Of a DNA stretch of 31,134 nucleotides, positions 3,346-31,134 are shown piece after piece; position 1 is the first letter of the stretch; the number at the start of each line of letters is the position of its first letter. Position numbers and translations under genes: made by a program. Source of the DNA: a virus; IMG/VR virus record IMGVR_UViG_3300020395_000736, positions 1-31,134 of that record, one strand, 5' to 3'. The notes under the pieces are model-generated. The model was not told where the DNA came from, made no database searches, and saw only the letters and a list, made by a program, of their open reading frames with translations.

Positions 3346-6300
3346 ATGCCTGCTGTAAAAACCAAGAGAATTTCCACTCTAATTGAAACGCAGCTTCCAG
3401 CTTTTATTACTGATGAATATGAACTCTTTAGTAAGTTCGTTCAAAAGTATTATGAAGCACAGGAGGTACAGGGTGGTACCTTGGATGTTATTAACAATAT
3501 CCAGAAATACGCAGATATAGATTATTATGAACAAAATATTCTTAGACAGTCTGATATCTTGGACACTAGTATTTCTACTAGTGATGATACAATTGTACTA
3601 CAAGATGCGACGAGTTTTCCAAAAAGAAACGGATACGTAAGAATTGATGACGAGATCATCTTCTATGCTTCTAGAACAGACACAGAGCTGAGAGAGTGCT
3701 CTAGGGGCGTCAGTGGCAATACATCGCTTGGAGACCTATATGAGTCTAGTAGCTTCACAACGACGGTTGCTGCTGCTCACAACGCAGGACAGAAGGTTCA
3801 TAACATAAGTAACCTTTTCTTATATGCATTAGTTAAAAACTTTGAGAATCAGTATCTAGGTTCTTTCCCTGAAAAATATCTTAGGGGTGAAGTAGATAAG
3901 AGAACTCTGATCAAGAATATTCAGAAGTTTTACAAATCTAAGGGAACTACAAGTTCCATCAAGTTTATTTTTAATACTGTTGTTGCTAAATCAACAGATA
4001 ACAAACCAGAAGTATACAAACCAAGAGATTTCACATACAAATCTTCTGAAGCTGATTGGGTTAACGTTTATGCACTTAAATGTAAGGTTGTATCTGGAAA
4101 TGTAAAGGATTTAGTAGGTAAGAAGATTGTACAGACAGCTACTGAAGAATATGGTTATGCTGATTCTACTGTAGATAATGTTTTTGCTGATGGTACATCA
4201 GATGGTGAAGTAATCTATAATATTGTATTAGCACCTGAGACAGTTAATGGTTCATTTGAAGTATCTACTAAAACTAAGCTTGAAAAAACCCTGTCAGGGA
4301 CTGCGATCTCAGGGGATAGAATTGATGTCTTCTCTACTGTAGGTTGGGGTAAGACAGGATCAGTATTAATTGGTGAAGAGACTATTACATTCAGCGAGAA
4401 GAATGTAACACAATTTGTTATTGATGAAAGGACGGCACAGACTGCTGTTCAACATGTAGCAGGGTCTTCAGTATACAAACCAGTAACCATTAGTGGTTCT
4501 GATGTTGTTCTACTGACCTTAGGTGTTGTATACAACCTACAACCATCTGATGCACAACCATATTCTGCTATTGGGGACAAGATTCAAATCTCAAATCCAG
4601 GATTTGAAACTTCCGATTCAAAGATTGTTCAGACTGGTACCAATCAAACCAGATGGGTGTTAAGTTCAGGTGCTGCAGTCGATGTGCCTACGCTTCCATC
4701 CGTTGCATCCTCCTTAGATCAAGTTTCTACTAACGTATCAGCGATCTTTGAAGATGAACAGTATTATTATATCACAAGTTCTAGCTACCCATCACATAAG
4801 ATTTTAGATGGATCTGTTGTTAATGAGACTGCACTAGATCAGAAACTGCTTCGTATCATTAGAAAGCAAGCAACTAGAACTACAGAACAATATAAGACAC
4901 CTAGAAGAGACGTTGGTATTGCTCTTAATGGTGTACCTTTCTATAGTTACAAAGATCCAGACAGTGTTAGGTTTGGTAAATTAGAAGAAATTAAGGTTGA
5001 TGTTAGAGGTACTGGATATGTAACACCTCCATTTGTCCTTGTAGATCAAGTTCCATACAAAGCTAGAGCAATCCTTGCTGGTCAGGTTGTGGAAAGTATC
5101 GTTGTTGATACTCAAGACATTTTCCCAAGAACTCCTGATATCACTATCACTTCTGGTCGTAATGCATCTGTAAGTGCTGTTGTTACTGGTGGTAAAGTCA
5201 CTAGTCTTGTTATTGACAATCCAGGTGAATTCTACTCTTCTGCTCCTTTAATTAGAATCAGAGATAATGCAGGTCGTGGTAGATTTGCAGAGTATCGTTC
5301 TATTGTTAATACTGATGGTAAGATTACAGGATTTGATAAGATTGGAGAAGGAAACTTCTATAATCAAGCTACTGTTATTGTTGATGTCATTCCAGTTGGT
5401 AATAGTGCAACTGGTATTCCTCTTCTTAAAGAATGGAATTTTAATAGATTTGAAAAATTAGAAAATAAATTAGATACTGAATATGGTTATATCTTTCCAA
5501 ACTATAATAACGTACTAGAATATGGTTATGGATATGCTGCTAACCCTAAAGCTTTACGTGTTGCTTTAAGCGATAATATTAATAGTGCAGGATCTGAACC
5601 TGCTACAAAAACTCATTCTCCCATTATTGGATTTGCTTATGATGGTAATCCAATCTATGGTCCTTTTGGATATGAGAACCCCTTAGATGCTACCTCATCC
5701 ATTGTTAGGATGACTTCTAGCTATGCTATAAATGGAAATCGTTCTGATGGTCCTTCATTGACAACTTACCCTCTGGGTACGTTTGTTAATGATTACACAT
5801 ACACTCATAAAAGTGGAACACTAGATCAAAACAATGGAAGATTTACAGTTACCCCAGACTTTCCAGAAGGAACTTATGCTTATTTCATTACTATTGATAG
5901 CAATCAAGTACCGCAATATCCATATCTTATAGGAGAGAACTTCTATTCTCTACCAGTAGATAGTAATTACAATTCTAATATTAATCAGGATGATATTCCA
6001 AAGAATTCTAGAAGATTCTATCAAAATGGAATGCAGAGAAATGGTGATGGTGTCATTGCTCAAATTGCAGAAGTAAAACAAGGAAATGTAGAAGAAGTTA
6101 ATGTATTAGATTCTTCTGCCAATTTCTCTATTAACTCACAAGTATATTTTGATAATAAAGGAACAGAAGGTTCTGAAGTAGAAGCTATTATAAACTCAGT
6201 TAAAGGTAAAGATGTTTCGTACTTAGAATGTAAAGAAGATAAAGTTGTAAGATTAACGACAATTCAGAGTGCTTATCTATTTGCTGATGATACACTAAAT

Positions 6301-9300
6301 CAACCATCTTCAGGTGCATCTGGTTCTATTGTAGGTACAGTTAAGAACGATAATACAATTGTACTAAGAAACGTCAATGGTACGTTTGATGAAACAGGAA
6401 CATTCTCTGCATCTATTAAAACATTTACTATTCTTTTAGATCAGAGAAGTTCATATACTAAAGGTGCAACGTTAAGTTTAACTGATGGTGTTAATGCACC
6501 TATAGCTACTGGTGAAGTATTAGAAGGAACTAATAGTCAAAACGTAGTAGAGATAAAGGTTCTTACTGGAACTTGGATAGTTGATGATTCTTATTTCTTA
6601 CAATCAGATGACTTATTCAATACTTCTGGAACTAGGATTGTAAGACTCACTTCTCTTAGTGATGGATTAGAACCATTTGATGTTAATCAAAGTGTTGCTC
6701 TAATTGAAACAACAGCACCTCATGGATTAGGAATTGGAGATCAGGTAACGATTGACATTAATCCTAATGACACAACTAAAACTAAAACTTATTATTTAAG
6801 AAAGAGGTTGTATCAGGAAGCTATTCTTGTACCACCTAGTAATAAGTCTACAATCGATTTTACAGGAATAGGAAGATATGAAATACTCAATGGTGGTGCT
6901 GACTATACAGCTGGTACTTACACTAGTGTGGCTCTTACTAGTGGGTCAGGATCTGGAGCAACTGCTACCTTTACTGTTTCTGACGCAGGTGTAGTTTCTG
7001 ATATTCAAATTCAGAATGCTGGTTCTGGATATGCAAGAGGTGACTACTTATCAGTTGCTGATGAAGATCTTTCAAGATCAGGTGCATCACAATCTACTTC
7101 AAGGTTTACAATATATGTTGGACATGTTGGTATTCCTGCTGGTGGTACAAAAGTTGCAGTTAAGAGTATATTAGGGTTTGCTGCTAATGATTTGATTCAA
7201 ATTGGTGAGGAAATTCTAAAGATTGAAAGTATTACTGGAACTTCTCTTAATGTAATTAGAGGACAAGAAGGAACTAGTGATGTTGATCATTTCAATGGTC
7301 AAGAAGTAATACTATACAAACCACAATATAACTTTGCTGCTAATTATCAGATCTTTAGTGGTAGCAATTCTGGATATATTCAGTCTTATGATCCAGTAAC
7401 TCATAAAATCAATATTGTATATGATTATGGTACTATTAAATCTACAGCTACCAAAGTAGTATTGAGTTCTAGTTTCTTTGATAGTAGTAATCCTCAAAGA
7501 TTAGTCTCTATTAAATCTGCATCGGATATAGTTTATAATTTTGAATTCTCAGAAGATAATAGTACATTTGTACCTAATCCTAATATAGATTTACAAGAAT
7601 TTTATAAGTATAAGTTTGATACGTCTCATTCTAGTCTTACTGGGACTTACTTTGATATTAGTCCAAGTAACAACTTTAACTTAATTACTGCAGAGAAAAC
7701 AGAATCTACTATTCTTCCTGGTAACCCAGGATCATTTAGTGATGTCAAGTTTGGATTTGGTTCTAGGTTAGCTGTTAATAACTATCAGACAAAAACTGGA
7801 ACTGATTTTACTAACTTCTATTATTTTGACAAAAAGAATGTAGTTGATTCAGAGAGTGCATATTTCAGAATTATTACAGATCCTCTACAGGGAACTAAAA
7901 CTCTTAACTATGTTACATCAAATCGTTTTGTTTATGATGTTACTAGTCCTCCTCTTTGGGATGGTTCTGGATCCATTTCTTATACTACTACTGGTCAGTT
8001 CGCTATCGGTAAGATTAATACCACTCAAATAATAAACCTAGGATTGAATTATAAGAAAGTTCCTGTTATTGTTGGTGTTGATCCAACTGCAAATTATAGA
8101 GCAGAAGCTACAGTAAAATTTGATATTGCAACAAAAACTATTAATGCCGTAGAGATTACTAAAAAAGGTTCTAATTATGTAAATCCAAAAGTCTTCATTA
8201 CTAATGGTGATGGTTCTGATGCTAAGTTTAATATTCTAGTTAGAGATGGTGAGGTTGCTTCTATAACTGTAGATAAACCTGGTAAGGGATATACATTTGC
8301 ACCTGAAATTATTATTGTAGAAGGTGAGGTAGAAGCATATGCAGAGAGTACATCTATTGGTGTTCCTAAGAGTGTTAATCTTACTACTAATGGTGGAGCA
8401 TTCCATTTAGATAAAACGGTATCTTCTACTTTTAGCTCAAACTATATTGTTACTGTTAAAAATATCAATGGTAACTTTAGTATTGGTGAAACTGTACTTC
8501 AAAAGATTAATGGTGTAGAAGTATTCAGAGCAACTGTTACTGATTGGAGATTTGGATCTAATTTACTTAAACTTGCGAATGTACAAGGTATTATTCGTGA
8601 GAACGTTTCTATTGAGTCTTTAAGATTCCCTGTAGATGCAATTGTAGGTAAAGTATTTGTTTCTACATTCCAAGAACAGATTTCTAGTTTTTATGATAAC
8701 TTAGGATACTATACATCTGATAGAGGTAAGTTAGGTGTATCCAATCAAAAACTTATCGATAGTTTCTTCTATCAAGATTATTCATATGTTGTAAAATCTA
8801 AAACTTCTATTGAGCAATGGCGTGACTTAATTAAGTCTACAACACATCCTGCAGGATTTAAACTATTTGGACAAGTAGATGTAGAAGCTACTGCAAGTTC
8901 TGAGATGCCAGTTGAGATGCCAAAGTCATCACACTTTAGTGTCATTCAATTATGGGATCCAGCAAAGAATAAAATCACTGTTGAGAATACAAGCAGAATT
9001 GTTACTCAAACTGTACAAACAGTTGAGAATCAGAGAATACGTAAAGCATTTGGTACTGCTGCTCCTAGTGAGTTCTTATTCAACGAAGTTCGCACATTTG
9101 AATTAGCTCTTGGAGCACCGTTTGATGGATATATTGACACAGATGGAAGACTACAAGGAACTACACAATTCCAAGTATTAGTTGCTGGTAATCCATTTAC
9201 TCTATCATCAACATATGGTACTATTATCACTTTAGATGGTGTAATTCAAGAACCAGGTGTTGCATACACAATTTCTGGTGATCAAATTACATTCGCTGCT

Positions 9301-12300
9301 CCACCATTAGGAGATGGAACTAAAGCTGGTTCTTCTTATAAAGGTGTTACTTTCTATGGTAAGGTATTCCAATTTAAGGATGCACAATACAATACAAAGT
9401 ACCTCAGAAAATTAAGAAATATTTTCCAACGTGGTGGTGTATGGATTGATGCTGCAAATCAAATTGAAAGAAATTTAGAATTCATTATTAACGAAACTAT
9501 TGGATATGGTAAGGCAACTCATCCTACCCTAGATTGGGCAACTAAACAAGATGATTATGAGAATAATATCAGATTTATCTTAGATGCATATCAACATGAT
9601 TTAAGGTTTGGTGGAAATATAAAAACAATTGATTATTCTGCTATCTTTAATAGTAGTTCCGAATATCTCTATATTCAAAATAATAAAACAAAATCTATTG
9701 ATATTTTTGAATATGTAACTAGATTAGCAAAACTTGCTATCAGAAATTGGGATTATATTGATACAGGAATCACTTACAATCAAGGGTCTACTACAATGAC
9801 TGTTAGTAGCACTAAAGATCTTGCAGTTGGTTTATTTGTAAGTTCTGGTAGAGGATATCCCGCAGGAACAAAGATTGTATCTATTGATAGTGATACTGAG
9901 ATCACATTAAACAATGCAGCACTAGCTAACTCTGGTGGAGGAGGTGGTGCTCCAGTAGGAACCACTTTACTAAGTGGCACAGCATCTACTGGCACTTTAC
10001 CAACTAGCACTGGTGCTGTTGCTCCTGGAAATACTTACAATGTGCCACCTGGTGTAACTGTCACAACACCTTCATCTTTCTCTGGTACTTCACAAGCATC
10101 ATTCTCTTGGAGTGGTTTAAACAAAGGTATGTTCTATAAAGCAGGACAACTAATTGCATTAAACAGAGCACATATCATTACAGAATCATTATCATGGGCA
10201 CAAACAACATATCCATCACTTAATTGGGGAACTATTGAAACTAAGTGTGGTAGAGACATTGGTCTTATGTTGGATGCTTATGTTTACTCACTTAAGTTTG
10301 GTGGTAATGAAAGAATCTTAGAAGCAGCACAATTATACTATAGGAGTAAAGAATATCCTTATGGAGAAGAATTATCTTATATTACAGGATCCTTAACTGA
10401 GACAGTTGCGACATTTAGCTATGCTAAAGATTTAATGGTACAGGCAATGAGAAATCAGTTGCCAGGTACAGATCCTAATGCTTTAATTGATTCTATTACT
10501 CCTGTATGTGCAGAAGTACAGAGTACACTTAATACCTATCACGACATTGTTACTACTATTTTAACAGAGGGTAGAGGTCTTATAGAGAAGACAAAACAGA
10601 ATCCTAATAAGTCTGGTAATTGGACACAAGATACTACTTACTCTAACTATAATATTCTTGGAGATCCTTTACTTCCTGCACAAGAATGTGCTACTGTAAT
10701 TTCTGCAATGAATTCATTGTTTGATAACTTAGACGATGTTATTAGAGAAGAGTCTGTAACAAGATCACTTCCAGATTATATTGATGGAGAAAATAAAGAA
10801 TTTGAATTATATTGGGATGATAATACAGAAGTTAATAGTGAAGAGGATGAAAATTTATTCTTAACTATTAATGCAGTATTACAAAGACCTAAGTTTACAG
10901 AAAATTATCCTTTAAGGGATGCATATTGGATTGATAGAACTGTTATTCCTAACAAGATAGTATTTGATGTAGCTCCTATATGGGATCAAGATTTGGGAGC
11001 TAAGACAGTTGGTGAACCGACTGCAGTTGAGAAAGTAGTTGGTATTGGTGTTGCTAATTATAAACGACTCACTATTGACTTTGATTTAGTTGATGGTGTT
11101 AGAAATGGTCCTTTCTTAATTTTAGATGTAGAAGATTATACTGTACAGAGTATTGAATCTGAAGATAGTATGTATGTTTTCCTAGATGGTATTCTACAAG
11201 TAAAAGGAAAAGCATATACTGTATCTGGTCCTAACATTACCTTTACTAAACCTATTAATAAAGAACATAATGTTGATATTAGATATCTTTATGGTAGGGA
11301 TGTTGGTCAGGTTCTTAACATATATGATTTTGCTCCTGATTCATATTTTGCACAAGGTACATTCTCATTCACTGCTGCTACACCTATTCTAGATGATCTA
11401 TTAGGATATGCTTGGATGGGTGATGGAATTGGAAAACCTATTCATTGTTGGCAAGAAAGAGCTAATGGAACTAGAAATCTTATTGGTGAACTTAAGAATC
11501 CAATTAGATCTGGAAACAATGTTGTTTTTGAACTTAAGTGTCATAACCCAGTCATAGAAAGCGATTTGGACTTTACTTTTGGTGTTAGAGGATATTATGA
11601 TCGAACAAATGTAATTGCTGATGGAGATATTACCAATCAAACACTTGCATTCAAAAAAGACGAAACAGGTAGAAAACTACTAAAAGATGATAATGCATTA
11701 TGGTCTGGAACATTCTATGGTAGAACTTATAAACCACCATTTGTATATCTTGCTAATAGTGACAAGATTAGAGTAGAAGGTGAGGAAGGATTTAGGGAAG
11801 TTAAGAGACTTCCTACTGAAGCTACCAGTAAAGATGGAAGACCTAATGAACAAACATCTGATGATATCTTCGGTACAGTCTCAATTGAGACTTATACTGG
11901 AATCACGAGAGGAGAAGGTCTCTCAGTAGTCGCTACTATTGAGAATGGATCTGTTACCAAATTAACATGGAACCAGCGTAGTTATGATCCAATTACACAA
12001 CCAACTGCATACCAATACTTTACACCTCCTATACTTAAGTTTGAAACACTAGATGGTAATGGTGGTGGTGCTAGAGCTAATGTTCTAGTAAGTAAAGGTC
12101 AAGTTATTAGTGTCGATTTGATTGATGGTGGTTCTGATTACACTACAGCACCTAGGGTTATTACAACTAGAAGATTTGATATTCTTAAAGAAAGAGATAT
12201 TGGTGTTTCACTAATTCAAATTGGTGTCAACCCATTTGTTGAGACTGGTGGAATGACTGCTTTCTCAGTTGTTTCTGAAATTGATGAAGCTGGTCTTACT

Positions 12301-13653
12301 TCAGTTACTGGTATTAGTTCTTTACCTGTACAGATGGCATCTGATCGTGATGTTGTTATTGCAGCAGAACTTCAAATTGGAGCTACTGGATTACCATCAT
12401 CTACTATTGTAGATAATGGGTTTGATATGCCAATTGGTGTTGAACAACCTGGTGGTGCTCAGATTGTTTATATTGAACCAGACCCTGTTGAGATTGAAGG
12501 AGAGGGTGGTGTACTAAGACTTCAAGGTAGTGCATCTTATGTCAAGGCAGAAATTCAGGATATCATAACTACAAATTCTATTTCTACTATATCCAAGGCA
12601 ATTACACAGACCCAACAGATTGAGATTCCTAATAATGCAATCAGCAATATCAATTACTTTGAGAATGCTGCATATCTTGATGTTGATCTTGCTGTTGGTG
12701 ATACTGAAGTTTATATTCCTGATACCAGCAAATTTGCTGTCAATGGAAGAATATTGGTTGGTAATGAAATTATATTCTATAATAAGAAATTACCTGATAG
12801 ATTCTTACAAATCCTTAGAGGTTATCAAAACACCACAGAACAATTCTGGTCTGCTGGTGCATATCTAAGACAGATTGAAGATGTAACAGTCGCATACGGT
12901 GGTATTGCTTCTATCGAATCTGAATCTGATATCAGCATGGTGGCTGTATCATCTGCTGCTGGTGGATTTGAAAGGAGAGTAACAAGACAGATCTCTCCTG
13001 CTTCTGAAATGTCCGTAACTAGAGAAGCTACGGAAGTTGTTATTACACCTCCACCAGGCGGTGTGGTTGACAGATATCTAGAAATTGCATTCTTGAGTGA
13101 TCCTATTGCACAAAGGAATGGTCCTGGTGTAACTCTGGTTACTGGAGCAGAAGATAAATATTATGTTACTCAAAGAAGTGGAAACGAACAAGTAATCAGA
13201 AACCAATTGTTTACTGTAACTAGTGGTTATATTGGAAATTATGCTATAACTAACGTTGGACACACTATTGGTCACTTTGATTACTTTATAGATGATGGTG
13301 TTGGTGTATCCAGTATGACTATTGGAGAAGTATCAACCTTCTTTGGTGGTATGACTATTGAAGACTTTAGTAAGAGGAGAGACTCACAGTATACATCTGC
13401 TGGTGATAAGTTTAATCTTGCACCTCCTTCACTTCAACAACCAGTTACAACAACAACTACTTCTGGTACAATACCTACCAGTATAGCTGCGCTAAATACT
13501 GCATACTTTGCGGATTCTGGTTACTTCTTCACTTCAAGTGGATCTGTAATCCAATATGCATCTAAAACTGCTAATACTTTTGACGGATGCACTCTAATAA
13601 GGGGTAATAACTCCATATCAAACGGGGATGAGTTGATTCCGTTCGCAATTTAA
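3346..13653 (+). CDS. gp7: Giant baseplate wedge protein, gp7-like core with large insertions (YHYH domain, repeats)
   Basis: At 3435 residues this is more than three times T4 gp7 (1032). The gp7 role is inferred from gene order (gp6-here-gp8) and from two stretches that resemble the C-terminal part of T4 gp7 as I recall it: residues about 160-305 (FYKSKGTTSSIKFIF at 195-209, then DLVGKKIVQTATEE) and residues about 1795-1842 (YSYVVKSK, then W-RDLI, then THPAGFKLFG at 1833-1842). In T4 these are nearly contiguous; here about 1490 residues lie between them, including a YHYH domain (about 757-862). Downstream are two helical 'LDAYxxxLxFGGN' modules (about 2026-2130 and 2263-2350), a VDSATQ-like module (about 2143-2196) followed by a Gly/Thr-rich linker, and beta-rich domains. 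Five 'IG-E-I' modules are spread from residue 75 to the C-terminus. It probably forms the wedge body plus an outer extension. The start follows a weak purine-rich site (AAAGAG). Confidence 0.85.
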   Translation: MPAVKTKRISTLIETQLPAFITDEYELFSKFVQKYYEAQEVQGGTLDVINNIQKYADIDYYEQNILRQSDILDTSISTSDDTIVLQDATSFPKRNGYVRIDDEIIFYASRTDTELRECSRGVSGNTSLGDLYESSSFTTTVAAAHNAGQKVHNISNLFLYALVKNFENQYLGSFPEKYLRGEVDKRTLIKNIQKFYKSKGTTSSIKFIFNTVVAKSTDNKPEVYKPRDFTYKSSEADWVNVYALKCKVVSGNVKDLVGKKIVQTATEEYGYADSTVDNVFADGTSDGEVIYNIVLAPETVNGSFEVSTKTKLEKTLSGTAISGDRIDVFSTVGWGKTGSVLIGEETITFSEKNVTQFVIDERTAQTAVQHVAGSSVYKPVTISGSDVVLLTLGVVYNLQPSDAQPYSAIGDKIQISNPGFETSDSKIVQTGTNQTRWVLSSGAAVDVPTLPSVASSLDQVSTNVSAIFEDEQYYYITSSSYPSHKILDGSVVNETALDQKLLRIIRKQATRTTEQYKTPRRDVGIALNGVPFYSYKDPDSVRFGKLEEIKVDVRGTGYVTPPFVLVDQVPYKARAILAGQVVESIVVDTQDIFPRTPDITITSGRNASVSAVVTGGKVTSLVIDNPGEFYSSAPLIRIRDNAGRGRFAEYRSIVNTDGKITGFDKIGEGNFYNQATVIVDVIPVGNSATGIPLLKEWNFNRFEKLENKLDTEYGYIFPNYNNVLEYGYGYAANPKALRVALSDNINSAGSEPATKTHSPIIGFAYDGNPIYGPFGYENPLDATSSIVRMTSSYAINGNRSDGPSLTTYPLGTFVNDYTYTHKSGTLDQNNGRFTVTPDFPEGTYAYFITIDSNQVPQYPYLIGENFYSLPVDSNYNSNINQDDIPKNSRRFYQNGMQRNGDGVIAQIAEVKQGNVEEVNVLDSSANFSINSQVYFDNKGTEGSEVEAIINSVKGKDVSYLECKEDKVVRLTTIQSAYLFADDTLNQPSSGASGSIVGTVKNDNTIVLRNVNGTFDETGTFSASIKTFTILLDQRSSYTKGATLSLTDGVNAPIATGEVLEGTNSQNVVEIKVLTGTWIVDDSYFLQSDDLFNTSGTRIVRLTSLSDGLEPFDVNQSVALIETTAPHGLGIGDQVTIDINPNDTTKTKTYYLRKRLYQEAILVPPSNKSTIDFTGIGRYEILNGGADYTAGTYTSVALTSGSGSGATATFTVSDAGVVSDIQIQNAGSGYARGDYLSVADEDLSRSGASQSTSRFTIYVGHVGIPAGGTKVAVKSILGFAANDLIQIGEEILKIESITGTSLNVIRGQEGTSDVDHFNGQEVILYKPQYNFAANYQIFSGSNSGYIQSYDPVTHKINIVYDYGTIKSTATKVVLSSSFFDSSNPQRLVSIKSASDIVYNFEFSEDNSTFVPNPNIDLQEFYKYKFDTSHSSLTGTYFDISPSNNFNLITAEKTESTILPGNPGSFSDVKFGFGSRLAVNNYQTKTGTDFTNFYYFDKKNVVDSESAYFRIITDPLQGTKTLNYVTSNRFVYDVTSPPLWDGSGSISYTTTGQFAIGKINTTQIINLGLNYKKVPVIVGVDPTANYRAEATVKFDIATKTINAVEITKKGSNYVNPKVFITNGDGSDAKFNILVRDGEVASITVDKPGKGYTFAPEIIIVEGEVEAYAESTSIGVPKSVNLTTNGGAFHLDKTVSSTFSSNYIVTVKNINGNFSIGETVLQKINGVEVFRATVTDWRFGSNLLKLANVQGIIRENVSIESLRFPVDAIVGKVFVSTFQEQISSFYDNLGYYTSDRGKLGVSNQKLIDSFFYQDYSYVVKSKTSIEQWRDLIKSTTHPAGFKLFGQVDVEATASSEMPVEMPKSSHFSVIQLWDPAKNKITVENTSRIVTQTVQTVENQRIRKAFGTAAPSEFLFNEVRTFELALGAPFDGYIDTDGRLQGTTQFQVLVAGNPFTLSSTYGTIITLDGVIQEPGVAYTISGDQITFAAPPLGDGTKAGSSYKGVTFYGKVFQFKDAQYNTKYLRKLRNIFQRGGVWIDAANQIERNLEFIINETIGYGKATHPTLDWATKQDDYENNIRFILDAYQHDLRFGGNIKTIDYSAIFNSSSEYLYIQNNKTKSIDIFEYVTRLAKLAIRNWDYIDTGITYNQGSTTMTVSSTKDLAVGLFVSSGRGYPAGTKIVSIDSDTEITLNNAALANSGGGGGAPVGTTLLSGTASTGTLPTSTGAVAPGNTYNVPPGVTVTTPSSFSGTSQASFSWSGLNKGMFYKAGQLIALNRAHIITESLSWAQTTYPSLNWGTIETKCGRDIGLMLDAYVYSLKFGGNERILEAAQLYYRSKEYPYGEELSYITGSLTETVATFSYAKDLMVQAMRNQLPGTDPNALIDSITPVCAEVQSTLNTYHDIVTTILTEGRGLIEKTKQNPNKSGNWTQDTTYSNYNILGDPLLPAQECATVISAMNSLFDNLDDVIREESVTRSLPDYIDGENKEFELYWDDNTEVNSEEDENLFLTINAVLQRPKFTENYPLRDAYWIDRTVIPNKIVFDVAPIWDQDLGAKTVGEPTAVEKVVGIGVANYKRLTIDFDLVDGVRNGPFLILDVEDYTVQSIESEDSMYVFLDGILQVKGKAYTVSGPNITFTKPINKEHNVDIRYLYGRDVGQVLNIYDFAPDSYFAQGTFSFTAATPILDDLLGYAWMGDGIGKPIHCWQERANGTRNLIGELKNPIRSGNNVVFELKCHNPVIESDLDFTFGVRGYYDRTNVIADGDITNQTLAFKKDETGRKLLKDDNALWSGTFYGRTYKPPFVYLANSDKIRVEGEEGFREVKRLPTEATSKDGRPNEQTSDDIFGTVSIETYTGITRGEGLSVVATIENGSVTKLTWNQRSYDPITQPTAYQYFTPPILKFETLDGNGGGARANVLVSKGQVISVDLIDGGSDYTTAPRVITTRRFDILKERDIGVSLIQIGVNPFVETGGMTAFSVVSEIDEAGLTSVTGISSLPVQMASDRDVVIAAELQIGATGLPSSTIVDNGFDMPIGVEQPGGAQIVYIEPDPVEIEGEGGVLRLQGSASYVKAEIQDIITTNSISTISKAITQTQQIEIPNNAISNINYFENAAYLDVDLAVGDTEVYIPDTSKFAVNGRILVGNEIIFYNKKLPDRFLQILRGYQNTTEQFWSAGAYLRQIEDVTVAYGGIASIESESDISMVAVSSAAGGFERRVTRQISPASEMSVTREATEVVITPPPGGVVDRYLEIAFLSDPIAQRNGPGVTLVTGAEDKYYVTQRSGNEQVIRNQLFTVTSGYIGNYAITNVGHTIGHFDYFIDDGVGVSSMTIGEVSTFFGGMTIEDFSKRRDSQYTSAGDKFNLAPPSLQQPVTTTTTSGTIPTSIAALNTAYFADSGYFFTSSGSVIQYASKTANTFDGCTLIRGNNSISNGDELIPFAI
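3373..4260 (+). other. gp7 core, first half (domain)
   Basis: Residues about 10-305 of the giant wedge protein. They hold a helical N-terminus (AFITDEYELFSKFVQKYYEA), an inserted IG-E-I module (75-153), and the helical KFYKSKGTTSSIKFIF segment leading into a beta region with DLVGKKIVQTATEE. I compare this with the T4 gp7 segment containing YSTKGIEASYKFLF and LTEDLVGQTIYTATG, recalled from memory. Confidence 0.7.
5614..5931 (+). other. YHYH domain within the gp7-like protein
   Basis: Residues about 757-862 carry the hallmarks of the YHYH domain (Pfam YHYH type, function unknown): HSPIIGFAYDGNPIYGPFGY at 757-776, GTFVNDYTY near 811-819, and NGRFTVTPDFPEGTYAYF near 830-847. The domain is known from secreted marine bacterial proteins and from cyanophage virion proteins. 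Here it sits in the middle of the insertion that splits the gp7 core. Confidence 0.85.
8728..8871 (+). other. gp7 core, second half (domain)
   Basis: Residues about 1795-1842: QDYSYVVKSKTSIEQWRDLI followed by THPAGFKLFG. I recall the T4 gp7 counterpart as SYYVMKIKSNLPSSRWKSDV followed by HPVGFGF. The aromatic-V-x-x-KSK, W-x-x-x-I/V and HP-GF pattern is shared. It closes the core after the long insertion. Confidence 0.7.
9421..10395 (+). repeat. Duplicated helical 'LDAY..L.FGGN' module
   Basis: Residues about 2026-2130 and 2263-2350 align: IERNLEFIINETIGY with IALNRAHIITESLSW, HPTLDW with YPSLNW, and FILDAYQHDLRFGGN with LMLDAYVYSLKFGGN. The two predicted helical modules are separated by a VDSATQ-like beta module and a Gly/Thr-rich linker. 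The pattern resembles helical segments I recall from other cyanophage virion proteins. Confidence 0.75.
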
Positions 13654-23730: not shown

Positions 23731-23937
23731 ATGGACTTTGTGAAAGTTGATGGACATGATGGTCTCGTAAGAGATCAAAACACTGGTGCCATCTTGAATT
23801 TGGACGATTCTGCTATAGCTGCAAGAAGGAAATCTATGCAGCTAAGTTCCGCATTGGATGACATAAATACATTGAAGAATGAAGTCTCTGAACTTAAGTC
23901 AATCCTTGCGGAAATCATAAAAAATGCCAGCAATTAA
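23731..23937 (+). CDS. Small conserved-type protein with C-terminal coiled coil (function unknown)
   Basis: The 68-residue protein has two parts. The N-terminus reads FVKVDGHDGLVRDQNTGAIL, which resembles the start of small proteins I recall from other T4-like phages. The C-terminal half (about residues 40-64) has a leucine/isoleucine heptad pattern (ALDDINTLKNEVSELKSIL), a probable short coiled coil that could oligomerise or bind a larger partner. It starts 9 bases after the DUF4815 gene and overlaps the next gene by 14 bases, so translation of the two is probably coupled and its product may act with the 1800-residue protein. There is no signal peptide or membrane segment, and no visible Shine-Dalgarno site. 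A virion or assembly role is inferred from context only. Confidence 0.8.
   Translation: MDFVKVDGHDGLVRDQNTGAILNLDDSAIAARRKSMQLSSALDDINTLKNEVSELKSILAEIIKNASN
23862..23869 (+). promoter_or_regulatory. Possible intragenic late promoter (CATAAATA)
   Basis: CATAAATA matches an NATAAATA late-type box and lies inside the 68-residue gene, 54 bases before the ATG of the 1800-residue protein. It could give that gene independent late expression. Motif matches are expected by chance in AT-rich coding DNA, so this is tentative. Confidence 0.3.
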
Positions 23938-26900
23938 TGTAGCTAAGACCGATACCTTTGAGTCTCAAAGGACGAAGATCAATCAAATTAGCGCAAATCT
24001 TTTCAACGTCACATCTGGTGGTAGTGACCTATCCACTGGTAACCTACAATTAGGAGATGGTCTAGTTGGAAACCCATCACTTAAATTTACTACTGACACC
24101 CAGTTAGGTCTCTACAAAGCTGGTGTAAAAACTATAGGGTTTGTTAATAGTGGTAAGAAAGTTATTGATTTTCAGTTATCAGAACTTACTTCATATCAAG
24201 ATATTAATATCCAACAAAGGAAATTAGCACAATCTCTACTTACTATGGTTAGTGGTGGTAGTGGATATGATGCTGGTTCATATACATCAATTCCTCTAAT
24301 TGGTGGTACAGGACAAAATGCTACTGCAGATTTTGAAGTATTAGCATTTGATGGTTCTGTTACAAATAATGGTTCTGGTTATGTCACTGGTCAGTATCTA
24401 TCAGTTCCTCTTGTTGATGGTAATGGAACTGGAGCAATTGGAAGCTTTGACGTTAGTGAACTTGAAGGTGCTATCACACAACCTGGTTCTGCTTATTTTC
24501 CTGCTACTTTTGAAAATGTTCCTCTTACAGGAGGAAATGGATCTGGAGCAGAAGCTACCATTGAAATTACTGGTACATCAACTCCTGCAGGAAGTATTAC
24601 TAATACTGGTAGTGGATATACCGATGGTTCTTATTCACAGGTTCAAATATTTAACGAACCAGTTCAAACATTTGTTGTTACATCTGTAGCTAACCCTAAT
24701 GCTGGTGGTTCAGGACAACCAAACTTCATCTATAACATTGACGGTGTAGATCAACCTCAGTTAACACTAGATGTTGGTAACACATATAGATTTGATCTTT
24801 CTGATTCATCAATAGCAGGAGCTAATCCAGGAGCACCAGGAAGTGATCATAGAATAACATTCCAACTTGCTAATGGAGGACCTGTTGATGCGACATTAAT
24901 TGAACCCTTCACTGCTGGTGTTTTCGGACAAGCAGGATGCTTTACTGATCTCGTATTAAAACCTGGTGCTCCCACAGGTAGTCTCAGTCTTCGTTATGAT
25001 TGTGCAAACCATCCAGGAATGGGTCCTTCAGGTGGTAGTATTACCACACAAGACACAACAACATACACTAACTATGGTTGGCAAGGTTTCTTTGATGTTA
25101 CTATCTCAGGCGGTGCAGTTACTGATGTACAATGGACTAACACAGGTGTTGATTATGGCACTGGAGATGTAGTTAGCATTCCAAATAGTTTAGTTGGTGG
25201 TACAGGATCTGGATTCGAGTATACTATTTCTAGTGTAACTAATACAGGTATTGTTGATAGTGTAACAATTACTGATAGTGGTGTTGGTTATCAAAATGGT
25301 GATGTACTTAGCGTAGCTGATTCTTCTGTAGGAAGTGGAGGTGGATCTGGTTTTCAATGGACAGTCTCAGCTATTCCTGGTGATCTTACTAACTTTGTTC
25401 TTAATGAAAGAGGATCTGGATATCAAATTGGTGATGTACTAGGATTACCTAAACAAATTTCTAACGTATCTGTATATCTACCTGGTTCAATTGGACCATT
25501 CACTGCAACTTTAAGTACAGGTAGTACGCAGGTAGTTATTACAGATACATCCAGTCTTATAGCAGGTCTAAATGTAGATGGAAGTGCTGGAGATACTGGT
25601 GAACTTGCTCAAGGAACCACTATTGCATCTGTTGATAGTGCAACACAAATAACACTGTCTGCAAATCCAACTGTATCTGGTTCAGCGAATTTAACATTCT
25701 CTACAACAGCTGCAAACGAAGTTACTCTTGCAAACACAGCAGGACTTACTATTGGATTTAAAGTAGAGAAGGTAAGTGGTACAGGTGTACTAGCAGCAGA
25801 TACAACGATTGCTAACGTTGACAGTACCACCACCATTACATTATCAGATACCCCAACTACACTAGGACCTGCTGTTGTTAACTTTGTTCCTGCATTTGGT
25901 GATCCTGCAGATGATTTTGCTTACACAATTGATACTCTTGGTGAGGTAGGAAGTTTTACTTTAGTAGAAGTAGGTAATGGTTATTCTCCACTTGATGAGT
26001 TTACGGTAAATGCTGGTGATCTAACTCAACCTATCCCATATACAGTAACAGTTAAAGACGTTCAAAGGATTACTTTAATTCAAACTGTCGCTGGTGGAAC
26101 TATTACAACTAGTGATACAATAGAAGAATTAGCTGGAGGTGTCACAAACGTCACCTTTACAGGTGGTGACATTGCACAAACTGTAACTGGTCCTCTTGCT
26201 TGTAGCTGTGTTCAAGGAGCATTTACAGCAACACTCGCAGATACAACTGGTATTAGTGTTGGAGACGCAGTAGCAGAAGATGGAAGTGGTAACCTTGCAG
26301 TTAATGTTACTGTTGCATCTGTTGATAGTGCAACTCAAGTAACACTATCTGCTGCATTCCTTCAAACTGCTAGTATTAATCTAACATTCACATCAGACGA
26401 GACTGGAACATTTAGTGGTGTTGCTTCTACAACTGCTGGAAATGGTAGTGGTGCAACATTTGATGTTGTTAGAAGTGCAAACGGAGACATCGCAAGTGTT
26501 GATGTTGCTGCTGCTGGTCTTGGATATGCTGATTCTGATACTTTAACGATTGCTGGTAACTTAATTGGTGGAGCTACTCCTGCAAATGATATTACTGTTA
26601 CTGCTGTTACTGTTACTACTGTTACAGCAGTTCCTGTTTTAAATGTTGATTTAGATGGTAGTGGTAACATTTCTACTATTCTAATTGAAGTAGATCAAGG
26701 TAGTGCATTTACTGCTGGACAGCAGTTTATTAAAACTGGTGTTCCTGGAACACAGTATACATCTGATACAGCAGGTAATCTTGAATTTAGATTCTTAATT
26801 GACGTTGGATCTGGTCCAGTTCTTACTCCAGCATGGACAATTTATGTTGGTAATACTTATAGATTTGACTTAAGTGATAATAGCGTATCTGGTCACCAAT

Positions 26901-29326
26901 TTGCTCTTAGTGAATTTAGAGATGGAACATACGCTCCAAGTTTAGTAGAGAATGTTAATACAACATTAAGTGTATCTAGTTATCAAATAACTGTAGCATC
27001 TACTACAGGTATTCTGGTTGGAATGCTTGCTTCTGTGACTAGTGGCGATGGTTTATTAGCGTCCAATACAAGAGTTGAATCTATTGACAGTGCAACTCAA
27101 CTAACTCTTACTCTTTTACCAGAAACAGCAGGTGCTTCAGTTCTTACTTTTAGTGGTACTGAATACACTGACGGTGTGCAAAGAGGTGCTGATGCTGCTG
27201 GTAATGCTTATCTAGATTTAACTGTTACTTCTGCAACTCCAAACCTTTACTACTATTGTGCTTCTGGTGCTGGTCACGAAGACGAAGGTGGTGAAGATAA
27301 CAACGAAGCATTAATAACTATTGATCCTAACAACCCTAAGACATTTGGTACTGGATTAGTTCTAAGAGCTACAGATATTTCTTCTGTAAATATCGTTACA
27401 ATGGAAGTTCTTACTGGTCAGGTAAGTGTTTCTGACATCGTAGCTACAGAAGGAACCATTGATACTCTTAGTGCTCCTGATCTTTCATCTACTACTGTTG
27501 CAGCAAGCACTAGCGTTACAACTCCATTACTTACCGCAGCTGGTTCTGCTCTTACTCTATCAGGAAGTTCTGTAGCGTCTACTGCAAACTTCTCAGTTGG
27601 TGGATTTTCTGTTACTCAAGCAAACAGTGATGTTGTTACTACAGGTGAACTTAAGACTACAAATAAACTTAATGTAAACGATAATATATTCATTGAGAAT
27701 AATGTTATTTCTTCTGATTCTGGTAGTGACATAGTTATAACAGCTCCTACTGGTAAAATCACCCAATTTACTGGTTTTGGTTCTATTAATATTCCTGCTG
27801 GTACAACTGCACAACGTCCTGGTGTTAGTGGTGCAGACAATGGATCTATCAGATTTAATACTGATAGTAATCAATATGAAGGTTACAGTGCTGCAACTTC
27901 TTCTTGGTCTTCTCTTGGTGGTGTAAGAGACTTGGATGGAAACACATACATCACTGCAGAACTTTCTATTGGTTCTAATGATAACACACTCTGGTTCTAT
28001 AATGATGGAGATAATACTGTTAAGTTTACTCCAAATGAATTAGAATTCAGAACTAATAAGACTATTAAGTCTGCAAATGTATCTGCTCCAGCATTTACTA
28101 ATTGGATAGCTAACGCACCTGTATTAGTTGGTGCATATCTGAAGTGGAAGAACAATTTATATGAAGTAACTGTAGCTGGTACAACTGCCACAAGTGGTAA
28201 CGAACCAACACACACTTCTGGTGCAATACCAAATGGATCAGCAACTCTGTCCTTCTGGGGTCTTGCAGTTGCTCCTTTAACATTTGTTGACGTTGAGGAA
28301 ATTAGATTAGATCCATTAGGTTCTTCTCCCTTCGTGATTAACGGAGATTTGAGACTTAGAGATAATATTATTTCTACAGATATTAGTGATCTTACTCTTC
28401 AACCTAATGCTGGTAAGAAGATTATATGTAGTGCAAACACTAGTATAGCAATTCCTTCTGGTACTGATTCAGAAAGAGGTGCAGTAATTCAAGGTGGTAT
28501 TAGATTTAATACAACTGCTAGTCAGTTTGAAGGTTATGATGGAACTAACTGGGGTTCACTTGGTGGAGTAAAAGACGTTGATCAAAACACTTATATTATT
28601 CCTGAGACTTCACCTGGTGCAAATGAGAATATCTTATACTTCTATAATGATGGAACAAACACGATGCGTCTTACTGCATCTGCACTTGAATTCTATAGCG
28701 TAGATACTATTATCTCTAGTACATCTAGTGAGTTTGAAATTACAGCAAGTTTGATGACATTCGATAATGCTGAAACAACTCTTGATAATACTCTTGCAGA
28801 TAGAACATTCTTGCATACCAGTAAGCAATACTTTGACCTAGGTCTTTCTGGTGGTTTATCAGTTGACCCAGTTCTTAGACTTGATAATCAAGGTGATGTT
28901 TATTTCAATACCTCATTTGGTACAGGTAACTTTACTGGAGTCAAAGTTTTTGATGGAGATCTTAAAGAGTTTGAACTTGCAGACACTAAGATCCTAACAG
29001 AAAAAGTAACTCTAACCAAGGGTTCTGCAAACACAGGTGGATCTGATATCTATGATGCTGTAACTGCAGTAGGAGCTAAAACAGTTGTAGTTGCAGAAAA
29101 CTTAAATAACAATGATAGAGAGTTTTTCGAGTTTGGTCTTATAGATAATGGAACAGATATCTTCCATACAGAGTATGGTAATGTTAGAACTGGGCAACAA
29201 CTAATTGTTCCCACGTTTGAGAGAACATCTGGCAACCTTGCTAGAATCAATTTTGAAGTTGGAGCAAACCTGCTTACTGGTCATCAAATCGAGATCACAA
29301 TCGTATCTACTATTACCAAAAAATAA
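23924..29326 (+). CDS. 1800-residue modular tail/fibre protein with two cupredoxin-like domains
   Basis: The N-terminus (MPAINVAKTDTFESQRTKIN) faintly recalls the start of T4 gp10, which anchors to the wedge; this is weak. Then come four GxGY repeats (about 111-240), a cupredoxin-like domain (265-378) with possible copper ligands H309, C360, H363 and M366, three more GxGY repeats (about 395-515), VDSATQ modules (527-593, 595-655, 766-822), and a second cupredoxin-like domain (965-1130) interrupted by another VDSATQ module (about 1012-1078). The C-terminal third holds two fibre repeats (1285-1383, 1505-1598) with IRFNT, EGY, SLGGV, NTYI and YFYNDG or WFYNDG, separated by a Trp-rich module (1391-1446). 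This architecture fits an extended peripheral baseplate or fibre protein. It overlaps the upstream gene by 14 bases. Surface or host recognition is inference; no enzymatic motif other than the copper-site pattern was seen. Confidence 0.85.
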   Translation: MPAINVAKTDTFESQRTKINQISANLFNVTSGGSDLSTGNLQLGDGLVGNPSLKFTTDTQLGLYKAGVKTIGFVNSGKKVIDFQLSELTSYQDINIQQRKLAQSLLTMVSGGSGYDAGSYTSIPLIGGTGQNATADFEVLAFDGSVTNNGSGYVTGQYLSVPLVDGNGTGAIGSFDVSELEGAITQPGSAYFPATFENVPLTGGNGSGAEATIEITGTSTPAGSITNTGSGYTDGSYSQVQIFNEPVQTFVVTSVANPNAGGSGQPNFIYNIDGVDQPQLTLDVGNTYRFDLSDSSIAGANPGAPGSDHRITFQLANGGPVDATLIEPFTAGVFGQAGCFTDLVLKPGAPTGSLSLRYDCANHPGMGPSGGSITTQDTTTYTNYGWQGFFDVTISGGAVTDVQWTNTGVDYGTGDVVSIPNSLVGGTGSGFEYTISSVTNTGIVDSVTITDSGVGYQNGDVLSVADSSVGSGGGSGFQWTVSAIPGDLTNFVLNERGSGYQIGDVLGLPKQISNVSVYLPGSIGPFTATLSTGSTQVVITDTSSLIAGLNVDGSAGDTGELAQGTTIASVDSATQITLSANPTVSGSANLTFSTTAANEVTLANTAGLTIGFKVEKVSGTGVLAADTTIANVDSTTTITLSDTPTTLGPAVVNFVPAFGDPADDFAYTIDTLGEVGSFTLVEVGNGYSPLDEFTVNAGDLTQPIPYTVTVKDVQRITLIQTVAGGTITTSDTIEELAGGVTNVTFTGGDIAQTVTGPLACSCVQGAFTATLADTTGISVGDAVAEDGSGNLAVNVTVASVDSATQVTLSAAFLQTASINLTFTSDETGTFSGVASTTAGNGSGATFDVVRSANGDIASVDVAAAGLGYADSDTLTIAGNLIGGATPANDITVTAVTVTTVTAVPVLNVDLDGSGNISTILIEVDQGSAFTAGQQFIKTGVPGTQYTSDTAGNLEFRFLIDVGSGPVLTPAWTIYVGNTYRFDLSDNSVSGHQFALSEFRDGTYAPSLVENVNTTLSVSSYQITVASTTGILVGMLASVTSGDGLLASNTRVESIDSATQLTLTLLPETAGASVLTFSGTEYTDGVQRGADAAGNAYLDLTVTSATPNLYYYCASGAGHEDEGGEDNNEALITIDPNNPKTFGTGLVLRATDISSVNIVTMEVLTGQVSVSDIVATEGTIDTLSAPDLSSTTVAASTSVTTPLLTAAGSALTLSGSSVASTANFSVGGFSVTQANSDVVTTGELKTTNKLNVNDNIFIENNVISSDSGSDIVITAPTGKITQFTGFGSINIPAGTTAQRPGVSGADNGSIRFNTDSNQYEGYSAATSSWSSLGGVRDLDGNTYITAELSIGSNDNTLWFYNDGDNTVKFTPNELEFRTNKTIKSANVSAPAFTNWIANAPVLVGAYLKWKNNLYEVTVAGTTATSGNEPTHTSGAIPNGSATLSFWGLAVAPLTFVDVEEIRLDPLGSSPFVINGDLRLRDNIISTDISDLTLQPNAGKKIICSANTSIAIPSGTDSERGAVIQGGIRFNTTASQFEGYDGTNWGSLGGVKDVDQNTYIIPETSPGANENILYFYNDGTNTMRLTASALEFYSVDTIISSTSSEFEITASLMTFDNAETTLDNTLADRTFLHTSKQYFDLGLSGGLSVDPVLRLDNQGDVYFNTSFGTGNFTGVKVFDGDLKEFELADTKILTEKVTLTKGSANTGGSDIYDAVTAVGAKTVVVAENLNNNDREFFEFGLIDNGTDIFHTEYGNVRTGQQLIVPTFERTSGNLARINFEVGANLLTGHQIEITIVSTITKK
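24254..24643 (+). repeat. Block of four GxGY repeats
   Basis: Residues about 111-240 contain four copies of about 40 residues: GGSGYDAGSYTSIPL, NGSGYVTGQYLSVPL, PGSAYFPATFENVPL and TGSGYTDGSYSQVQI, each followed by a Gly-rich loop and a strand. At least three more copies follow the first cupredoxin domain. Similar units occur in the gp7-like, gp8, DUF4815 and terminal fibre genes. Confidence 0.8.
24716..25057 (+). other. Cupredoxin-like domain 1 with complete type-1 copper ligand set
   Basis: Residues about 265-378. The domain reads LDVGNTYRFDLSD, then SDHRITFQL, and ends LRYDCANHPGMGPSGGSI. H309 and the C360-x2-H363-x2-M366 cluster fit the His-Cys-His-Met set of a mononuclear blue-copper site, in the short-loop form seen in several microbial cupredoxins. 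Copper binding is inferred. Confidence 0.7.
25502..27157 (+). repeat. Four VDSATQ beta modules
   Basis: Copies at 25502-25702, 25706-25888, 26219-26389 and 26957-27157. The pattern is T-x-x-I/L-x-x-G-x-x-V, then a T-x-(I/V)-(A/E)-(S/N)-(V/I)-D-S-(A/T)-T-(Q/T)-(I/V/L)-TL core, then about 12 residues and a strand ending (L/V)-(T/N)-F. Copies 1 and 3 share a 38-base stretch (25625-25662 and 26315-26352) with three differences. A fifth, diverged copy lies in the gp7-like protein (residues about 2143-2196). Confidence 0.8.
26816..27313 (+). other. Cupredoxin-like domain 2, interrupted by a VDSATQ module
   Basis: Residues about 965-1130. It shares VGNTYRFDLSD exactly with domain 1, then SGHQFALSEF (H991) and, after a roughly 67-residue inserted module, LYYYCASGAGHEDEGG with C1112-x4-H1118. 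No methionine follows where an axial ligand would be expected, so this copy looks degenerate or differently coordinated. Confidence 0.65.
27776..28717 (+). repeat. Duplicated C-terminal fibre repeat
   Basis: Residues 1285-1383 (27776-28072) and 1505-1598 (28436-28717) align throughout: SINIPAGTTAQR with SIAIPSGTDSER, GSIRFNTDSNQYEGY with GGIRFNTTASQFEGY, SLGGVRDLDGNTYI with SLGGVKDVDQNTYI, LWFYNDGDNTVK with LYFYNDGTNTMR. Between them is a Trp-rich module (1391-1446). Confidence 0.85.
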
Positions 29327-29873: not shown

Positions 29874-31134
29874 ATGAGTTTTCATATTAATTCCGATAAA
29901 GAGAAGATTAGAGGCGTCAACTCTAAATTCATCGGAGATAATGAAGCAACGATAAGAATCGGCACAGGCGCAGACGAGAAAGAAGTCTTGCGAGCTGAGT
30001 TGGATTCTGCCACTCAATTACCCCGTATCGGTATTAACCGAACTGGGAATAGAGTTAATAACATTGTTCTCGAAACTGCAGGTACTGGATATACAGTAAA
30101 CCCGAATGTAACTATCGGACCTCCTAATGTTGAAGGTGGTATTCAAGCACTTGCTTCCGCATTTATTTTTAACGGTAAAGTAACTACAATTGCTGTTAAC
30201 AACCCAGGTTCTGGATATACCATTGCTCCTCTAGTTACAATTGAAGGTGGTGGTGGATCTGGTGCTACTGCAACTGCAGAACTTGACACGGTTGATTATG
30301 AACTTGATATCAATGGTGCTATCAGAACATCTACATCTATCATTTCTGATACTGCTAGAATCCTAAACCTTGATATTGACAACTTTGTTACTCCAGATCC
30401 TAACTTCAGGGGTCCTAACCTGAAGACTTATATGAATAACACAGGCACCTTGTGGTCTGCTAATGTTATCATACAAAAAGATCAATACAGATATTTTGGT
30501 GCTAATGTTTATCAATCATTAAACACTGGACAAACAGGATCTGAAGCTCCAGAACATGTTGATGGTATTGTAAAAAATGGTGCTGTTGACTTTAAACATA
30601 TAGGTTTCCGTGTCAATGATCCAACTGAGTTTGGATATAACACCACTGGAGAAGCTGGAGTATTCCCAAGATCTATTACACCTCTACTAGGTGACAGATC
30701 AGACAAAGTAGCTACTACAGAATATGTCCTTAACCTAGCAACGAATGACGTTGGTGGTCGTATTTACGTTTCAGCACAGATTGGTTCTGACCTTAACGAT
30801 GGTCGATCTGCTGTAAACCCAGTTAGAACTATTAAGAAAGCAGCACAAGAGGCATGGAAAACGCCTGGTGTTAAAGAAACTATTATCGTATCTGGTGGAG
30901 ATTATGTAGAAGATAACCCAATATCACTACCTCCTGATGCATCAATCGTTGGTGATAACTTACGTTTGGTAATTATCAGACCAGCTAACCCTGGTAAACA
31001 CATGGTTAAGTTTGGTGATAAGAACTATGTTATTGGTGTTACTTATCGTGACCAAATTGATTCTAATGGCGACTCTGTTGCTACTTGGGATTATGCCATG
31101 GTCTTTGATGATAAGCAAAGAATCATGGTTGACA
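29874..31134 (+). CDS. Fibre/spike protein with beta-helix-like region, 3'-truncated by window edge
   Basis: The frame opens at 29874 (MSFHINSDKEKIRGVNSKFI) and stays open for 420 codons to the window end, so the C-terminus is missing. Seen in order: an N-terminal segment, two GxGY repeats (GTGYTVNP at about 70-77 and GSGYTIAP at about 111-118) with a GGGGSGATATAE loop, a Trp-rich module (about 191-249) like one in the 1800-residue protein, the phage-fibre motif DRSDKVATTEYV (274-285), and GGRIYVSAQIGSDLNDGRS (293-311) followed by PVRTIKKAA. The last pattern typically opens a right-handed parallel beta-helix in polysaccharide-binding or -cleaving tailspikes. No catalytic residues can be judged from this part. 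It has its own CTAAATA box and CGGGAAC leader. A receptor-binding role is likely but inferred. Confidence 0.85.
   Translation, partial: MSFHINSDKEKIRGVNSKFIGDNEATIRIGTGADEKEVLRAELDSATQLPRIGINRTGNRVNNIVLETAGTGYTVNPNVTIGPPNVEGGIQALASAFIFNGKVTTIAVNNPGSGYTIAPLVTIEGGGGSGATATAELDTVDYELDINGAIRTSTSIISDTARILNLDIDNFVTPDPNFRGPNLKTYMNNTGTLWSANVIIQKDQYRYFGANVYQSLNTGQTGSEAPEHVDGIVKNGAVDFKHIGFRVNDPTEFGYNTTGEAGVFPRSITPLLGDRSDKVATTEYVLNLATNDVGGRIYVSAQIGSDLNDGRSAVNPVRTIKKAAQEAWKTPGVKETIIVSGGDYVEDNPISLPPDASIVGDNLRLVIIRPANPGKHMVKFGDKNYVIGVTYRDQIDSNGDSVATWDYAMVFDDKQRIMVD
30444..30620 (+). repeat. Trp-rich module shared with the 1800-residue protein
   Basis: Residues about 191-249 (LWSANVIIQ, then ANVYQSLNTGQTGSEAPEHV and GIVKNGAVDF) match the layout of residues 1391-1446 of the 1800-residue protein (NWIANAPVLVG, NNLYEVTVAGTTA, EPTHTSGAIPNGSATLSFWG; bases 28094-28261). 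The shared pattern is W-x-A-N, Y, G-x-T, P-x-H-x-x-G, NG. Confidence 0.65.

Follow-up and report, generated by a model that had tools for sequence, protein, structure and literature searches.

A candidate type-1 copper site in a predicted virion structural protein of a marine T4-like phage

The stretch of viral DNA analysed here, referred to as the window (31,134 nucleotides, positions 1 to 31,134 of the IMG/VR record IMGVR_UViG_3300020395_000736), encodes a large protein that contains two cupredoxin-like domains. A type-1 copper centre is formed by the residues His, Cys and His together with Met in cupredoxin order, and a complete set of these residues is present in the first domain. The locus therefore raises the question of whether a phage structural protein holds a working copper site that is under selection or whether the ligands were retained by accident, which the initial annotation had named as the main alternative.

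The PHROG search assigned the 1800-aa ORF to phrog_6005, 'virion structural protein' (E 0), and additionally to phrog_32294, 'baseplate wedge subunit' (3.9e-75). Several genes located upstream match PHROGs named baseplate wedge subunit, and downstream, at 29874, a gene matches a tail-fibre PHROG, which is the arrangement of a T4-like baseplate-wedge cluster. The annotated gene order of Prochlorococcus phage Syn1 is identical from gp8 on, and the homologue in the respective Syn1 slot is Syn1_099, annotated as 'virion structural protein'; the names gp25, gp6 and gp10 and the equivalence to the T4 gp10 slot are presumed by us from the T4 gene order. Judged from these matches, the 1800-aa protein is a predicted virion component of a T4-like phage and belongs to its baseplate region; it is not a proven fibre. 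The initial annotation had placed the domain in a phage tail/fibre protein, and the label 'fibre' is too specific in view of the wedge-gene cluster and the separate tail-fibre gene downstream, although domain 1 alone has its top PHROG match in phrog_30742, 'tail fiber protein' (2.1e-8). No relative of the whole protein was detected in the PDB at E<=0.01. The protein contains six Cys and eight His residues, and two of the former and four of the latter occupy ligand positions in the two cupredoxin-like domains. A CxC pair (C760 and C762, 26201-26209) is located outside both domains. Elsewhere in the window, directly before the baseplate genes, positions 21-512 encode a 2OG-Fe(II) oxygenase (phrog_81) and positions 515-1126 a small protein that weakly matches ferredoxin. 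The ORF 3346-13653, specifying another large structural protein of 3435 aa, shows a weak cupredoxin-profile match at 7576-7746 (residues 1411-1467; E 2.4e-4 over the whole protein and 9.6 bits in this stretch), and this stretch is possibly a degenerate cupredoxin copy. The features of the 1800-aa protein are compiled in Table 1.

Table 1. Positions of the predicted protein, its cupredoxin-like domains and their ligand residues in the window
Feature	Position	Strand	Evidence
Predicted virion structural protein, 1800 aa, two cupredoxin-like domains	23924..29326	+	ORF, PHROG matches
Domain 1, cupredoxin-like, residues 248-381	24665..25066	+	AlphaFold2 model, fold matches, plastocyanin-type profile match
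H309, predicted copper ligand 1	24848..24850	+	His in 89/90 copies; aligns with plastocyanin-type ligand His
C360, predicted copper ligand 2	25001..25003	+	Cys in 90/90 copies
H363, predicted copper ligand 3	25010..25012	+	His in 89/90 copies
M366, predicted axial ligand	25019..25021	+	Met in 88/90 copies, Glu in 2/90
Domain 2, diverged cupredoxin-like with inserted module, residues 929-1150	26708..27373	+	Domain-1 profile, model
H991, counterpart of H309	26894..26896	+	His in 42/51 aligned domain-2 copies
Module inserted within domain 2, model residues 79-150	26942..27157	+	VIA-align
C1112-x5-H1118-x2-E1121, counterpart of the C-x2-H-x2-M loop	27257..27286	+	Alignment of domain-2 copies

Translation of the ORF placed H309, C360, H363 and M366 in frame, and the only CxxH or CxxHxxM motif among the ten window ORFs examined starts at C360. 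At the level of the superfamily, the type-1 copper pattern is present, since His, Cys, His and Met follow each other in this order and the Cys, the second His and the Met share one loop (C-x2-H-x2-M). The presence of H309 and of C360-x2-H363-x2-M366 in the right order within one domain, as proposed initially, is thus confirmed by translation as well as by the conservation and the model described below. The domain had correctly been called the first of its kind, as a second, split copy is located at residues ~929-1150. The interval 24716-25057, to which it had been assigned, corresponds to residues 265-378 and is part of the domain, but the model also uses the strand just upstream, and the boundaries were consequently extended to residues 248-381.

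The AlphaFold2 model of residues 248-381 is a confident beta-sandwich (pLDDT 92.8, pTM 0.87). In this model, H309 (model H62) is located just before strand 64-68, C360 (model C113) ends strand 105-113, and H363 and M366 (model H116 and M119) precede the last strand. The ligands are thus predicted to occupy the strand-terminal and loop positions expected of a cupredoxin beta-sandwich, and in this respect the model is compatible with the co-location of the four residues on which the initial proposal depended. A Foldseek search of the PDB with the domain-1 model returned no match at E<=0.001; rusticyanin ranked first (E 0.012), the first ten rows also contained immunoglobulin-like FLT3 chains, and amicyanin chains occurred among the rows. 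VIA-align gave as top match the copper nitrite reductase 2dv6 with a modest score (Z 8.5, rmsd 3.0, 99 aligned residues), followed by two-domain laccases (Z ~8). The matching part of this three-domain reductase is its N-terminal cupredoxin domain (chain residues 27-137), which shares 18% identity with the phage domain and, in contrast to it, belongs to an enzyme. In the BFVD, the domain-1 model matches giant-virus 'beta-sandwich proteins' from Pithovirus and Marseillevirus records (A0A481Z7Q7, A0A481YY19 and A0A481Z6J5; E<1e-3).

For the analysis of ligand conservation, the search profile covered only the portion of the domain N-terminal to the first ligand, so that the motif itself was not selected, and the loci L001 to L160 were searched. 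The loci L001 to L073 derive from a scan with six seeds, CANHPGMG among them, whereas L076 to L155 are the best 80 of 478 relatives, a choice that favours window-like copies, and many of them share contigs with L001 to L073. The unfiltered search with the N-terminal profile yielded 157 distinct copies, including 90 with the full set, 49 with the early His without C..H..M in reach, 12 with neither and six truncated ones. Conservation was counted in a set of 90 distinct copies that includes the window copy (effective number 51 at 80% identity); exact duplicates were removed, and truncated copies, N-terminal matches with E>0.01 and 53 insertion-bearing copies of the second-domain type, recognised by a regular expression, were left out. 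In this set, the four ligands are complete in 87 of 90 copies, with the exceptions of L151, which lacks both His residues, and of L147 and L150, which carry Glu instead of Met. For 50 of the copies, the representative derives from a scan in which GNTYRFD was the only seed, and complete sets were likewise present in 47 of these. A cruder count on L076 to L155, the best 80 of the 478 relatives, gave 54 full sets out of 59, the five incomplete ones being two domain-2 copies, L151, L150 and L147. It is mainly because 87 of 90 copies keep the ligand motif that we do not regard it as a chance occurrence; the four residues do not vary freely among viral homologs, where the initial annotation had suggested that their conservation be checked.

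An alternative reading is structural reuse, in which a stable beta-sandwich, recruited for binding or as a spacer, would retain its ligand residues for packing, with no metal bound. Virion proteins often reuse beta-sandwiches, which speaks for this reading. On the other hand, conservation stays below 25% in every other His, Cys or Met column across the 90 copies, and the alignment A1, consisting of the window copy and 37 of 50 copies chosen by profile and not by motif (38 rows), contains seven invariant columns, four of which are the ligands. Moreover, the ligands are kept while the length of the loop varies, as L049 and L050 carry C-x2-H-x4-M in place of the C-x2-H-x2-M of the window.

The second domain bears on the same alternative. 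The domain-1 profile matches it at residues 968-1012 and 1075-1117, on both sides of an insert, and its model has a pLDDT of 88.2 and a pTM of 0.78. In profile comparisons, domain 2 matches domain 1 with 99.5%, versus 6.2% for the plastocyanin-type cellular alignment A4 introduced below. The inserted module resembles protein domains of Arthrobacter phage Bridgette (8eci_1, VIA-align Z 8.7) and of the tail tube of phage Mystique (9n71_A, Z 7.9), and visual inspection suggests that the 1800-aa ORF contains further stretches of this type. The insert dominates the fold search with domain 2, in which copper proteins appear weakly (factor VIII, Z 5.1; AcoP, 4.5; laccase, 4.5). An alignment of 51 domain-2 copies, comprising the window and 50 of 59 sequences, revealed the first His together with a C-x(2-8)-H-x2-[E/M] loop in 36 copies. 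Nine copies lack the first His, and the Cys is gone in all nine; six further copies lack the Cys yet retain the first His. The loop His is absent from each of the 15 Cys-less loops. A Fisher test on the domain-2 ligands gave p 1.1e-7 for a table (41, 7, 0, 11) that was compiled by eye from 59 rows and ignores shared descent. On the tree of domain-2 copies, at least three changes of the first His and at least five of the Cys are required; independent tree pairs agree in direction but are not significant (three supported pairs; median p 0.25 or 0.5). The axial position is occupied by Glu in most Cys-keeping domain-2 loops, with the longer spacing C-x5 to x7-H-x2-E; L144 carries C-x2-H-x2-E, and L133 and L155 carry the canonical C-x2-H-x2-M. 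These loops possibly represent a natural series of altered copper sites.

The persistence of domain 2 in the 15 of 51 rows that miss the Cys and the loop His is compatible with structural reuse, as are L151 and the copy in a small PSS2 protein, in which the first His, the Cys and the loop His are all lost. The same observations, however, show that relatives tolerate the loss of ligands to which domain 1 holds on in nearly every copy, and that where ligands are lost, at least two go together (15 of 15 Cys-less domain-2 rows, PSS2 and L151). Since related domains persist without ligands, accidental retention in domain 1 appears unlikely, and the grouped loss points in the same direction. The alternative favoured initially is thus weakened, and structural reuse is, in our estimation, improbable. 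The preferred reading is that domain 1 contains a type-1 copper site that works and is selected in a virion structural protein of a marine T4-like phage, which we consider likely from sequence conservation and modelling; if so, such phage particles probably carry copper.

A comparison with cellular cupredoxins indicated how far this likeness extends. No cupredoxin model of Pfam, PF00127 (Copper-bind) included, matches domain 1 of the window, which is accordingly not a PF00127 member, and NCBIfam gave no cupredoxin model for the window copy either. PF00127 is not among the 16 Pfam families listed for the 38 members of A1; a single member has a weak Cu-oxidase match (E 0.037) and two have weak matches to the amicyanin model TIGR02657 (best E 0.078). 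Matches below the cut-off to PF25489, an At5g54830-like domain, were noted in seven of the 38 members (best E 0.0014) and in three of six phage copies scanned (P-SSM2, S-SCSM1 and S-H35). Phosphoglucomutases found in the PDB by phmmer with the window domain as query (16 sequences, E 0.022-0.19) all match query residues 34-64 and were dismissed as chance. Seven of the eight PDB chains listed for the A1 profile are blue copper proteins (best E 0.12), and the list is headed by the immunoglobulin-like LRIG1 (E 0.0099), above plastocyanin.

The cellular alignment A4 comprises 28 of 36 candidate proteins that were picked by the H..C..H..M pattern, so that its ligands are invariant by construction; by our reading of the sequences they are mostly plastocyanin-type, and they come from the class to which a genome titled Prochlorococcus belongs. 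A second phage alignment, A2, contains only copies with the C..H..M pattern, and the invariance of these three residues is likewise by construction. In one comparison each, A1 matched A4 with 95.2% (E 2.9e-8) and A2 matched A4 in hhalign with 96.5% (E 9.9e-10), both with the four ligands in register; as the rows of A2 and A4 were chosen by ligand patterns, part of this likeness is by construction, whereas the rows of A1 were chosen by profile. The A2-A4 score of 58.2 compares with a maximum of 23.4 in 100 column shuffles, and masking of the four ligand columns reduced it to 22.7, within the shuffle range, and the probability from 96.5% to 9.3%. The likeness of the phage and cellular sequences thus appears to be mainly that of the copper site, and homology beyond it is weakly supported. 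A bridging copy is that of P-HM1, which matches plastocyanin 1b3i (E 3.2e-4), lies just under the Pfam Copper-bind cut-off (20.2 versus 21.2 bits) and shares 47% identity (50/106) with a cellular cupredoxin from a genome titled Prochlorococcus sp. AG-355-N18; the latter protein exceeds the Copper-bind cut-off, and the start of its ORF is signal-like by our reading. With respect to the small cupredoxins of the plastocyanin type, the phage domain shares the His...Cys-x2-His...Met register and, in the model, the beta-sandwich with a Cys ending the penultimate strand and His and Met in the next loop; it differs in a loop that is two residues shorter, in its location within an 1800-aa virion protein and in having little similarity outside the ligands. 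Amicyanin (TIGR02657), which has the same C-x2-H-x2-M spacing, is a free periplasmic electron carrier, unlike the phage domain.

The site might also bind another metal, for instance zinc, or the cysteine might be engaged in a disulfide bond in the clade of the window, in which case the window copy would not be a copper site. Type-1 sites can take zinc in vitro, and a further cysteine, Cys339, which is a Cys in 16 of the 90 copies including that of the window, might pair with Cys360 in this clade, counting against the copper site. However, the residues His, Cys, His and Met follow the cupredoxin order of a type-1 copper set, and all 16 copies with Cys339 keep the full ligand set, although a disulfide would have let the three other ligands drift. 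We give this alternative, like structural reuse, a small chance.

The distribution of the domain was determined by tblastn with one phage copy, which matched 73 of 50,697 phage records. According to the first word of their names, these belong to Synechococcus (38), Prochlorococcus (14), Cyanophage (10), Methylophilales (4), Pelagibacter (3), Marine (2), phage (1) and uncultured (1), the lone record named 'phage' being from seawater; judged by these names, the relatives in phage records appear to be nearly all marine. Under a loose pattern, at least one full ligand set occurs in 12 of 13 named phage regions that were our choice among the matches, and 15 of 20 domain matches are full. Domains with full sets are present in phages of Synechococcus, Prochlorococcus, Pelagibacter and Methylophilales, Syn1, P-HM1 and ACG-2014h being examples of phages with a full set, and the proteins that carry them are annotated as structural or tail-fibre proteins. 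Among genome contigs, the seed GNTYRFDx[SA] occurred in 24 stretches, five of which contained a relative, namely two Prochlorococcus records, one TaraRedSea assembly, one TMED44 assembly and one short Streptomyces match that was treated as chance. Ordinary PF00127 proteins are found in 51 of 59 cellular genomes, and the marine restriction consequently applies to the phage-type subfamily only.

As the hosts differ while the sea is shared, these data suggest a role outside any single host's photosynthetic chain. They bear directly on the view that the domain is a mimic of plastocyanin, an electron carrier of the host, with which it would exchange electrons as the phage enters. The identity of the P-HM1 copy to the cellular cupredoxin mentioned above, whose start is signal-like by our reading, is in favour of such a mimic, as is the fact that cyanophages carry petE, encoding plastocyanin, as a metabolic gene (PMC3037559); this phage-encoded cupredoxin is, however, a stand-alone gene and not part of the virion. 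The occurrence of full-set relatives in Pelagibacter and Methylophilales phages and the embedding of the domain in large structural proteins argue against it, and we regard the mimic as very improbable.

Reports on a virion cupredoxin, or on a type-1 site conserved in a structural protein of a phage, were not found among the open-licence papers listed in the literature searches. In S-SM1 virions, 41 proteins were detected by Sullivan et al. 2010 (PMC3037559), and the words 'copper' and 'cupredoxin' are absent from the main text of that paper; viral NirK is treated in PMC8115048. Cupredoxins as such are already known, and what appears to be new, judged from these searches, is a conserved type-1 site inside a phage structural protein. 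A precedent for metal in phage tails is the gp37 tail fibre of T4, in which iron ions are coordinated by HxH motifs, with cases in marine phages also being proposed under the 'Ferrojan/Trojan horse' hypothesis (PMC11705849). Both systems would place a metal site on an exposed tail structure, but T4 gp37 holds iron by HxH motifs in a fibre, as opposed to a cupredoxin domain here.

Under the preferred reading of a working copper site, the domain at residues ~248-381 would bind one copper ion through H309, C360, H363 and M366, the last three provided by the short C-x2-H-x2-M loop. Copper is kept scarce in the cytoplasm, and the simplest guess is therefore that the ion would be loaded not there but upon cell lysis, within the host envelope or in seawater. 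It would then act at the surface of the particle. A possible, if tentative, role is that of a contact with the host surface, or a trigger there, that depends on copper. About equally likely is a site that binds copper only to harden the domain in seawater and has no contact, redox or sensing role; the iron in the T4 fibre is a precedent for metal in such a structure (PMC11705849), and the marine-phage structural proteins that contain the module carry different annotations. The persistence of related domains without ligands argues against copper serving only the fold, as the metal is then not required for the retention of the domain, and because of these ligand-less copies we lean to host contact. 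Still broader, and rather unlikely at present, is the notion that many ocean phages of various hosts carry a working type-1 centre on the tail or baseplate as a copper-dependent switch or envelope contact, a 'copper Trojan horse'; if true, the free virion would be a copper metalloprotein particle and a carrier of trace metal in seawater.

Confirmation of the copper site would mean that ocean phages have virions that are copper proteins, with an unsuspected metal need for adsorption or particle stability. A function would thereby be provided for a domain that recurs in marine phage records under the labels 'virion structural protein', 'tail fiber' and 'hypothetical protein', along with a new handle on the sensing of cell surfaces by phage tails. 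Moreover, these particles would constitute a seawater pool of bound copper, comparable in kind to the iron that has been proposed for tail fibres.
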